DNA from: an uncultured Devosia sp.
GTDB taxonomy: Bacteria; Pseudomonadota; Alphaproteobacteria; Rhizobiales; Devosiaceae
Direction of reading: 5' to 3'
DNA length: 64,000 nt
Assembly: GCF_913055165.1 (NCBI RefSeq)
Contig: NZ_CAJXJS010000006.1
Span: 1-64,000 of the forward strand
The position numbers and the translations under genes were made by a program. Within the stretch, counting starts at the first letter, position 1, and every line of letters starts with the position of its first letter. The notes under the pieces are model-generated. The model saw only the letters and a list, made by a program, of their open reading frames with translations, was not told the origin of the DNA and did not search any database. Positions 51,400-60,190 of this stretch are shown here, in pieces.

Positions 51400-51567
51400 A
51401 TGGCCAAGGCCGCCACCATCAAGATCAAGCTCGTCTCGTCGGCCGATACCGGCTTTTTCTACGTGACCAAGAAGAATGCCCGTACCCAGACCGAGAAGCT
51501 GGCGTTCAAGAAGTACGACCCGGTCGTGCGCAAGCATGTCGAATTCAAGGAAGCCAAGATCAAGTAA
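51400..51567 (+). CDS. rpmG: 50S ribosomal protein L33
   Basis: Manual translation: [55 protein letters not shown] (55 aa; below ORF track cut-off). Confidence 0.97.
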
Positions 51568-51592
51568 TCTTGCTTTCCAGCCAAAATGAACA

Positions 51593-51616
51593 AACCCCCG
51601 CAAGTGATTGCGGGGG
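51593..51616 (+). terminator. Intrinsic terminator of rpmG
   Basis: aacccccgcaagtgattgcgggggtt followed by ttgtttt. Confidence 0.85.
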
Positions 51617-51736
51617 TTTTGTTTTGGTCGCCAGGCTGCGCATGCTTGCGTCCCCACTCCTCACACAAGCGCCTTCTGGCCGATGCACAAGGAATGGGGC
51701 GTCACTGCGTCCACAGGTGACTGCGCACAACATATC

Positions 51737-51886
51737 CCACTCTGAATAGAAAGAGTGGCTGGTCCGGAGCGGCATGTCGAAGAGGCCACTCTGTCCGCGT
51801 CCGGACCAACCGCCCTACGGAACTCAGGAGTTGCGGCGGACCTGAGATGGGCCGTAGGGAGCAGAGGGTATTGGGATTTGTCCCAA
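51737..51886. ncRNA. Candidate structured non-coding RNA (strand unresolved)
   Basis: Consecutive hairpins: ccactct-N8-agagtgg (51737-51758); ggtccggagcgg...ccgcgtccggacc (51761-51807); ccctacgg..ctcagg...cctgag..ccgtaggg (51813-51859); ttggga-tttg-tcccaa (51871-51886). Confidence 0.4.
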
Positions 51887-52011
51887 GACCATCTGTAGCA
51901 AACCTAATCCCAACCCCGGCAAAGGCCAAGCGAATCCATCGCGCAACGGCGGGCAACCGTTTGTTAACTAAAACAAATAACCCTAATGCGCGGCAATTTA
52001 GGAAACCACGG

Positions 52012-53382
52012 CTAGGCCGCGTCGAAGATGACCCGGTTCCGCCCTTCTCGCTTAGCGCGATAGAGTGCGACGTCAGCCCGTTTGATCAGGCTCTCCGGCG
52101 TATCGGCATGGGTTTCATTGAGCGACACCCCGGCTGAAACCGTAACCGATAGCGCACGCGCCGCGCCGATTTCGAACGGCTTTTCTGCAATGGCCTGCCG
52201 TACGCGTTCGGCCACCGCTTCCGCCTGTCCGGTATCGGTATCCGGCATGAGTACGACAAATTCCTCGCCGCCAAAGCGGCAGGCCAGGTCGACACCGCGA
52301 ATATTGCGCTTGAGCCGGGCCGCGAACTCCCGCAGCACCGCGTCACCTGCATCATGGCCGTGATTGTCGTTGACGGCCTTGAAGTGATCGATGTCCAGGA
52401 TCATCAGCGCCACGTCCCGGTCCTGCTCCTGCGCCTTGTTCAGCATCACATTGAGATGCCTGTCGAAATAGCGCCGGTTGTAGAGACCAGTGAGTTCGTC
52501 GGTCACGGCCAGTGCCATGGTGTTGTTCACGCTCTCGCGCAGTTCCATGGCATAGCGGTGGCGTCGAATCTGGGTGCGCACCCGCGCCTGCAATTCGTTC
52601 CGATCCACCGGCCGGCTGATATAGTCGTTCACGCCGAGATCCAGCGCCCGAACCACTTGCGGCTTGTCGCTCGCATCCGCCATCAGGATGATCGGCAAAT
52701 TGCGCGAATGCTCTACCGTTCGGATCTGCGAGCTGACGCGCAGCGGGTCAAACCCATCAAGGCTCATGCTGATCAGGGCCAGCTCATACCCTGCCCCGGC
52801 CACCTGGAAGACGGCATCGGCCGGCTCGGTCAATATGTCCACGGCGTGATCAGGTGTCAGATAGCCCTGGATACGCTCGGCATGTCGCCGATCCGTATCG
52901 ATGATCAGCACAGAGCCACCGCTGGCAGAAATGCTGTCCATGGCCCGCAGCGCATCCTCAACAGCAATCTGCTGTCCTGTGAGGGCGCGCGCCCGCAATT
53001 CATCGGTCAGAGACTTGAGCCGCACCAGGCTCTTCACCCGCGCCATGAGCTGGGTGTCGTCCACGGGCTTGGTCAGGAAGTCGTCGGCGCCCGCGTCTAG
53101 CCCCTGGACCCGGTCGGAAGCCTGATCCAGTGCGGTGACCATAAGCACCGGCACATGGTGGGTCTTCGGATTGGCCTTGAGGCGCCGGCAGACTTCGAAA
53201 CCGTCCATCTCAGGCATCATGACGTCGAGCAGCACGATGTCGACGTCCTGGCTGTCACAGATCGCCAGGGCCTGAGCGCCTGAGCTGGCCGTCAGCACCT
53301 CGTAGTATTCTGCGGCTAACCGTGCCTCAAGCAGACGGACATTAGTGGGAATATCGTCAACAATCAGAACGCGCGCGGTCAC
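52012..53382 (-). CDS. pleD: PleD-family response regulator diguanylate cyclase (REC-REC-GGDEF)
   Basis: Two REC domains (DIVLLDVMMPEMDGFEV), RGVD I-site, RFGGEEFVVLMP; GTG start at 53382. Confidence 0.95.
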   Translation of the reverse strand: MTARVLIVDDIPTNVRLLEARLAAEYYEVLTASSGAQALAICDSQDVDIVLLDVMMPEMDGFEVCRRLKANPKTHHVPVLMVTALDQASDRVQGLDAGADDFLTKPVDDTQLMARVKSLVRLKSLTDELRARALTGQQIAVEDALRAMDSISASGGSVLIIDTDRRHAERIQGYLTPDHAVDILTEPADAVFQVAGAGYELALISMSLDGFDPLRVSSQIRTVEHSRNLPIILMADASDKPQVVRALDLGVNDYISRPVDRNELQARVRTQIRRHRYAMELRESVNNTMALAVTDELTGLYNRRYFDRHLNVMLNKAQEQDRDVALMILDIDHFKAVNDNHGHDAGDAVLREFAARLKRNIRGVDLACRFGGEEFVVLMPDTDTGQAEAVAERVRQAIAEKPFEIGAARALSVTVSAGVSLNETHADTPESLIKRADVALYRAKREGRNRVIFDAA

Positions 53383-53471
53383 AGCATTACTCCGGATACC
53401 AGCGGCCAACCGGCAGAATACGCACCGGCTTCAAGCCCCCGCCCAAGCTGGCCGCAGGGTGTGCTGCGGCG

Positions 53472-53843
53472 TCAGGCAGGCCCAATATAGTGGGCAATGG
53501 TTTCCAGAAAGTGAGACACCGAAATCGGCTTGGAGATATAGCCCTCGCAGCCGCCCTGCAGGATGCGCTCCTCATCGCCTTTCATGGCGAAGGCCGTCAC
53601 CGCCACAACCGGAATATGAGCGAGCTGGTCATCGTCCTTGAGCCACTTGGTCACCACAAGGCCGGAAACCTCAGGCAGCTGGATATCCATCAGGATCAGG
53701 TCCGGCATATGCGCCCGCGCCAGGTCCAGCGCTTCCATCCCGTTGCGGGTCTGGATGACGGCATAGCCGCGCGATTCCAGCAGATCGTTGAAGAGCTTCA
53801 TGTTCAGCTCATTGTCTTCCACGATCATCACAGTCTTGGGCAT
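53472..53843 (-). CDS. divK: Single-domain response regulator DivK
   Basis: [61 protein letters not shown]; next to pleD. Confidence 0.93.
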
Positions 53844-53973
53844 TCTACCTCGCTTGGACACCACCGGGTGTCCGGCCCGGAAAACGTCGACTCGCCCGTC
53901 GGCGGCACTTCGCTTTCACATGCATTCTGGGCTAACATCCAAACTCTAACAAAACACCAAGTGAGACCGCTGC

Positions 53974-58476: not shown

Positions 58477-59961
58477 TCATCCGTGACCCACCAGCAGGTC
58501 GCCATTTGCCTTATGGTGCACGCCGAGATTGTCGACGATGGTCGCGCTGGCCTTGTTCATGCCCGATAGCGTCACCTCCCGGCCCAGCTTGCGGAATTTG
58601 AGAACCGCCTTGTCGACCCCGGCCACACTGGAAATGTCCCAGATATGGGCGTGTGTCAGGTCGATCACCACGCGATCCACCGCCTCATCGAAGTCAAAAG
58701 CCCGCATGAATTGCTCGGCCGAAGCGAAGAACAACTGTCCCTGCACGTGATAAACCCGCGTCTTGCCGTCCTCGCTCAGCTCCTTGCGCACCTGGAAGAT
58801 CTGCGAGATCTTCCAGGCAAAGAACACGCCAGACAGCAGCACTCCCACGAGCACGCCGATTGCCAGATTGTGGGTATAGACCACAAAGGCCACCGTGGAG
58901 AGCATCACCATGGATGACGAACGCGGGTGATCGCGCAGATTGCGGATCGACTGCCAGTCAAACGTGCCGATCGACACCATGATCATGATCGCTACCAGCG
59001 CCGGCATGGGGATATTGCGCAACAGGTCACCAAGCACCACCAGCAGCACCAGCAGATAGGCTCCGGCAAGGAATGTGGACAGACGCCCACGTCCGCCGGA
59101 ACGCACATTGATGCCCGACTGGCCGATCATGGCACAACCCGCCATGCCACCAAAAAAGCCGGAGGCGATATTGGCGATGCCCTGTCCGATGCTCTCCTGC
59201 CTCTTGTCACTCGGCGTATCGGTGAAATCGTCGATGATCTGCGCTGTCATCAGGGATTCGAGCAGACCAACGGCCGCCACCCCCACCGAATAGGGCAGGA
59301 TGATCCAGAACATGTCCAGCGTCAGCGGCACATTCGGAATGAGAAGGAACGGCAGCGCCGTGGGCAGTTCGCCCATGTCACCCACCAGGTGCACATCCAG
59401 CCCACCGAAGAACACCACCAGTCCAACGACGATGATGGCCACCAGCGGCGAGGGCACCAACGTGGTTACGCGCGGGAACAGATAGATGATCAGAAGCGCC
59501 AGTGCCACCATGGGATAGGTCATCATCGGCACGCCGATCAGCTCGGGCAATTGCGCCATGAAAATCAGGATCGCAAGCGCATTGACGAAGCCGGTCATCA
59601 CAGATTTCGACACGAACCGCATCACGGTATGCAGCTTAAGATAGCCCGCGCCGATCTGCAGCACGCCAGCCAGAATGGTCGCTGCCAAGAGGTAGTCGAG
59701 CCCGTGCTCGCGCACCAGTGAGCCGAACAGCACCGCGGTTGCCGCCGTGGCGGCAGAGATCATGGCGGGACGCCCGCCAAAAATAGCAATGACAATGGCG
59801 ATCACCACCGAAGCATAGAGCCCGACCCGGGGGTCGACGCCGGCGATGATGGAAAAAGCGATAGCCTCTGGAACGAGGGCCAGGGCGACGACGAGACCGG
59901 AGAGCAGGTCGCCCCGCACATTCCGCACCCACTCGGCGCGGTAGTTTTCGAAATTGAACAT
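58477..59961 (-). CDS. SulP family anion transporter with C-terminal STAS domain
   Basis: [68 protein letters not shown]. Confidence 0.94.
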
Positions 59962-60190
59962 GGACAAGACCCAGGGCGCAGACGGCTGGGAACCGCCTTG
60001 AATGCGCGATGATACTTGTGACCGGGGGATAGGCGCCCGGAGAAGCCACTCGGCAGGAAACACCGAGTCCGACGAACGAGAGGCTTATAACGACGGGATC
60101 AGGTTCGAACAACCCGGCGACACGCATCCCTGCCCTGACCAGTCGTCAGGCCCGCATTCCGTGACGAAAAAGCGCGAACGGAAAAAAACA

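Follow-up and report, generated by a model that had tools for sequence, protein, structure and literature searches.

The cluster of inverted repeats between rpmG and pleD is almost certainly the Devosia orthologue of EcpR1 (RF02500, Atu_C6). This small regulatory RNA has been described before as a brake on the cell cycle of stressed bacteria, and few other sRNAs are known that act on the core of the alphaproteobacterial cell cycle. A cmscan search (Rfam 15) of the whole window, i.e., the complete 64,000-nucleotide stretch of DNA analyzed, matched RF02500 on the minus strand at 51861-51752 with 82.7 bits (gathering cut-off 60; E-value 4.5e-10), and the alignment was full length, covering model positions 1-113. 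This match delimits the sRNA core (51752-51861, minus strand), with its 5′ end at 51861. An earlier note on this DNA had described a structured intergenic RNA rather than a protein gene, which was upheld, and all the inverted repeats that it named were found in place. Its proposal of a novel sRNA, however, was refuted because the RNA clearly matches an established class: it belongs to an sRNA family already described and carries a few Devosiaceae-specific features. None of the papers found had studied EcpR1 in Devosia.

Further Rfam matches within 51560-51722 (sodF_sRNA, rnk_pseudo and others) were weak, fell below their cut-offs and lay mostly over the rpmG terminator. Elsewhere in the window, a sul1 RNA (RF03058) was matched at 60016-60073 on the minus strand (53.3 bits; cut-off 36.2). 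It immediately precedes a long open reading frame on the same strand (58477-60063) which, read by eye, resembles a SulP-type sulfate transporter with a STAS domain. The listed GTG start of this frame overlaps the sul1 RNA, so its true start is probably located downstream.

The EcpR1 locus is preceded on the same strand by divK (53472-53864, minus; a single receiver domain, Pfam Response_reg) and pleD (52012-53409, minus; REC-REC-GGDEF, Pfam GGDEF and Response_reg), and it is convergent with rpmG (51400-51567, plus; ribosomal protein L33, Pfam Ribosomal_L33), whose terminator was placed at 51592-51619 by a terminator scan. This order, in which the sRNA shares its strand with divK and pleD while rpmG runs towards them, was kept in nearly all of 67 related loci. 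The 3.87-Mb genome contains one copy of EcpR1, which is likewise single copy in nearly all others that carry it.

With regard to distribution, RF02500 was matched in all 37 genomes of the genus sample, in 204 of 298 genomes from the window's order and in 10 of 385 from the class. Among named genomes, only those of Devosia contained exact matches to a portion of stem-loop 2, which makes Devosia the most likely source of the window. Eight homologues (L132-L139) belonged to two families filed outside the order, and most of them had the same pleD and rpmG neighbours; they extend the range given for EcpR1 in the 2011 and 2015 papers, with the caveat that taxonomy releases differ.

Structure, strand and covariation

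Compared with dinucleotide shuffles, the region folded more stably than expected on both strands, with a z-score of -3.7 for 51700-51920 on the plus strand and, on the minus strand, of -5.3 for 51745-51861 and -6.3 for 51745-51894; the last was the clearest of the segments, and for both minus-strand segments none of 200 shuffles was as good. Pairing was then counted in 55 oriented homologous sequences. Over both EcpR1 stem-loops, 95.1% of the cells were paired and 13 of the 25 pairs had changed on both sides; 112 cells carried double-sided changes, whereas shuffles gave 39.0 (sd 7.5). When the partners were slid by one column, pairing fell to about 50%. Furthermore, RNAalifold independently recovered the same two hairpins. 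Covariation is strong in both stem-loops.

On the minus strand, 131 cells were G-U wobbles; paired cells would decrease from 95.1% to 86.9% if the alignment were read on the other strand. Since the wobble pairs fit the minus strand, the RNA is assigned to this strand independently of Rfam. These data bear directly on the alternative of a novel plus-strand sRNA, or an RNA derived from the rpmG 3′-UTR, endowed with a conformational switch. The repeats do fold on the plus strand, and the alternative complementarity on which the earlier note had based its switch (agagtggc with gccactct) is real, but the wobbles, the Rfam match and the promoter-like element described below all favour the minus strand. 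The alternative fold itself found support neither in energy nor in covariation: when forced, it lies 8.1 (plus strand) and 11.0 kcal/mol (minus strand) above the minimum, and in the 55 sequences the switch pairing was 76.2% paired, with two pairs changed on both sides, which was not above shuffles, whereas the stem that the switch would break covaries strongly. We consider this plus-strand alternative very improbable.

Even less credible is a repeat element or a set of chance inverted repeats without function. GC-rich DNA folds easily, and no other support for this explanation was found, but the element is single copy and syntenic, it folds beyond shuffles and it covaries; copy number, synteny and covariation refute this explanation.

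On the minus strand, the EcpR1 orthologue thus consists of two stem-loops, the first conserved and the second variable and covarying. Stem-loop 1 (51813-51859) was delimited by folding and comprises an outer stem (CCCUACGG/CCGUAGGG; 90.8% of cells paired in the 55 sequences) and an inner stem (CUCAGG/CCUGAG; 98.8%). It encloses loop 1, UCCGCCGCAACU (51829-51840, minus), which was recognized as the target-binding motif from the alignment and the published motif (PMC4414408). The loop 1 columns were invariant in the 55 sequences, save for a U-to-A change in Devosiaceae.

Stem-loop 2 (GGUUGGUCCGGA/UCCGGACCAGCC; 51757-51811, minus) was defined by folding and by its covarying stem, in which 8 of the 10 main pairs had changed on both sides and 97.6% of the cells were paired; it is probably the stem of an intrinsic terminator. 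Its loop holds a conserved motif, GAGUGGCCUCUUCG (51778-51791, minus), which reads GAGUGGCCUCCUCG in most other families; loop 2, GAGUGGCCUC, is nearly invariant in the alignment. The motif is more plausibly a loop kept constant for its sequence than part of a switch. Beyond the stem, the pyrimidine-rich 3′ tail ACUCUUUCUAUU (51745-51756, minus), seen in the sequence and its relatives, is likely the region where transcription terminates.

The two conserved stems are the middle ones of the cluster. The flanking hairpins were kept only in the closest relatives: one, TTGGGA-CAAA-TCCCAA (51871-51886, minus), is predicted by folding within the 5′ leader, and the other, a 7-bp hairpin (51737-51758), lies outside the conserved RNA at its 3′ side and is imperfect or absent in relatives.

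Transcription and upstream region

A candidate sigma-70 promoter was located at 51901-51930 on the minus strand, with CTTGGC (51930-51925) as -35 and TAGGTT (51906-51901) as -10 element. All 29 Devosiaceae loci had the pattern CTTG-N(17-18)-TAGGTT 36-46 nt upstream of the RNA core, two of them matching only in a relaxed form, and the sequence between the two boxes varied across Devosiaceae. This candidate was not listed by a generic consensus promoter scan because its -10 box departs from TATAAT, and the comparative alignment was used instead. From the position of these boxes, transcription would start near 51894, so that the leader would measure about 33 nt, similar to the 29 nt of the longer 5′ form of S. 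meliloti EcpR1.

The sRNA runs on the minus strand, convergent with rpmG. Given that it has its own conserved promoter-like sequence, the 3′-UTR origin contemplated in the earlier note is unlikely. Independent transcription, together with induction by stress and ppGpp, is a trait expected of the EcpR1 family; by analogy with S. meliloti, the Devosia RNA would also be expressed and induced under stress.

Further upstream, about 110-130 nt from the EcpR1 core, an AT-rich block conserved in Devosiaceae was found (TTAGGGTTA-N4-TTNNANTTAAC, ending in TTAAC; 51963-51986, minus). The genome contained no further exact copies of this block and one copy with two mismatches. A CtrA box (TTAA-N7-TTAA) is a doubtful reading of it, as by eye the genus sequences did not fit and only outgroups did so loosely.

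gcrA and dnaA as candidate targets

Experiments with compensatory mutations in S. meliloti showed that EcpR1 uses loop 1 to repress two genes, gcrA by pairing at -109 to -95 and dnaA by pairing around its ribosome-binding site and start codon; over-production of EcpR1 leads to cell elongation (PMC4414408). In the Devosia RNA this loop is intact over GGUCCGCCGCA (51842-51832). These 11 nt are complementary to the gcrA leader of Devosiaceae, where the upstream sequence TGYGGCGGACC is a perfect or single-wobble complement of 11 nt. Of the 10 Devosiaceae genomes scored, 9 had this complement at about -110 to -100 and the tenth (G056) kept 8 nt of it. The aligned gcrA leader of Devosiaceae was near-invariant at the site, with one further change in a genome outside the scored set (G179).

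Neither a run of 11 nor an equal duplex energy was reached by any of 150 background gene starts of the same genome, drawn from the window and seven 20-kb stretches. Outside Devosiaceae, 7 of 23 genomes carrying EcpR1 had a gcrA site between -95 and -120 with a complementary run of 8 or more, against none of 16 genomes of the same order in which EcpR1 scored below threshold (one-sided Fisher p about 0.016, computed by hand and ignoring phylogeny); a few of these 16 have weak matches, so that divergent copies may be present in them. The genome as a whole showed no enrichment of the exact 11-mer (13 sites, compared with 14 of the reversed pattern), so the case for gcrA rests on position and conservation.

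In the gcrA leader, within the stretch from about -130 to -95, a palindrome, CACGATATCTCGTG, lies directly before the EcpR1-complementary site; it was seen in L055 and other Devosiaceae and is partly kept (CTCGTG) in other families. This palindrome may hold the complementary site accessible.

Taken with the experiments in S. meliloti, the 11-bp pairing with a conserved leader site makes it likely that EcpR1 represses gcrA in Devosia. We propose that a sigma-70-type promoter of its own, near 51901-51930, drives leftward transcription of the RNA on the minus strand, which would end after stem-loop 2. Stem-loop 1 would then display the single-stranded loop 1, which, together with two G residues of the stem, could form 11 perfect base pairs with the gcrA site about 100-110 nt before the start codon, and EcpR1 would probably repress this master regulator of the cell cycle in stationary phase or when the cell is stressed.

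An unlikely alternative, considerably more plausible than those discussed above, is that the RNA, although EcpR1 in origin, works chiefly on targets different from gcrA or via loop 2, the gcrA match being kept for another reason such as leader structure. Indeed, the gcrA leader is also highly conserved around the site, including the adjacent palindrome, so that another cause of conservation is possible; loop 2 is nearly invariant; and many genomes outside Devosiaceae carry EcpR1 without the gcrA site. Against this, the complement lies at the same place as the proven S. meliloti site, no background gene start reached the gcrA match and, outside Devosiaceae, the site occurred in this sample only in genomes with EcpR1 above threshold. 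We therefore favour gcrA as the target of the Devosia RNA.

In Devosiaceae, complementarity to dnaA was weaker than to gcrA and its position shifted from species to species. Owing to this lack of positional conservation, dnaA is doubtful as a conserved target in the family, and any action of EcpR1 on dnaA in Devosia would be presumed from S. meliloti.

Comparison with known EcpR1 RNAs

EcpR1 of S. meliloti, also named SmelC291, SmrC10 and Sra33 (RF02500 Atu_C6; PMC4414408), has a published locus layout identical to that of Devosia, with divK, pleD and the sRNA followed by a convergent rpmG. Both RNAs share two stem-loops, a GC-rich loop 1, a single chromosomal copy and a complement in the gcrA leader about 100 nt before the start codon.

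They differ in several respects. Loop 1 is UCCGCCGCAACU in all Devosiaceae examined and UCCGCCGCAUCU in S. meliloti, with 11 of 12 positions identical. The difference is the U-to-A change at the tenth motif position: all Devosiaceae examined read CCGCAACU and all other loci CCGCAUCU, with the exception of L139 (CCGCAUUU). Residues C16 to G36 of EcpR1 had been described as identical among the species then known (PMC4414408), and the changed base sits just outside the 11 nt that pair with gcrA. Loop 2 reads CUCUUCG in Devosia and CUCCUCG in S. meliloti, the 5′ leader and the upstream block also differ, and the dnaA sites are unconserved in Devosiaceae. It is conceivable, albeit somewhat doubtful, that EcpR1 has diverged in Devosiaceae in both control and targeting, with a fixed loop 1 change, a family-specific block upstream of the promoter suggesting an extra transcription regulator, and conserved cell-cycle targets narrowed to gcrA through the loss of dnaA.

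While S. meliloti EcpR1 is known by experiment, the Devosia RNA is known here from sequence. This also distinguishes it from the putative EcpR1 of Methylosinus sporium 5, which was detected as a transcript (PMC12403871). Both belong to the same family, were found with Rfam, have two stem-loops and adjoin rpmG. Target predictions in M. sporium 5 were inconclusive (PMC12403871), whereas Devosia has a conserved gcrA site. This conserved leader site, which in our sample accompanies only EcpR1 above threshold, supports gcrA as an ancestral target beyond rhizobia, and Devosia, as a free-living genus, offers a simple test ground for the targeting of gcrA by EcpR1.
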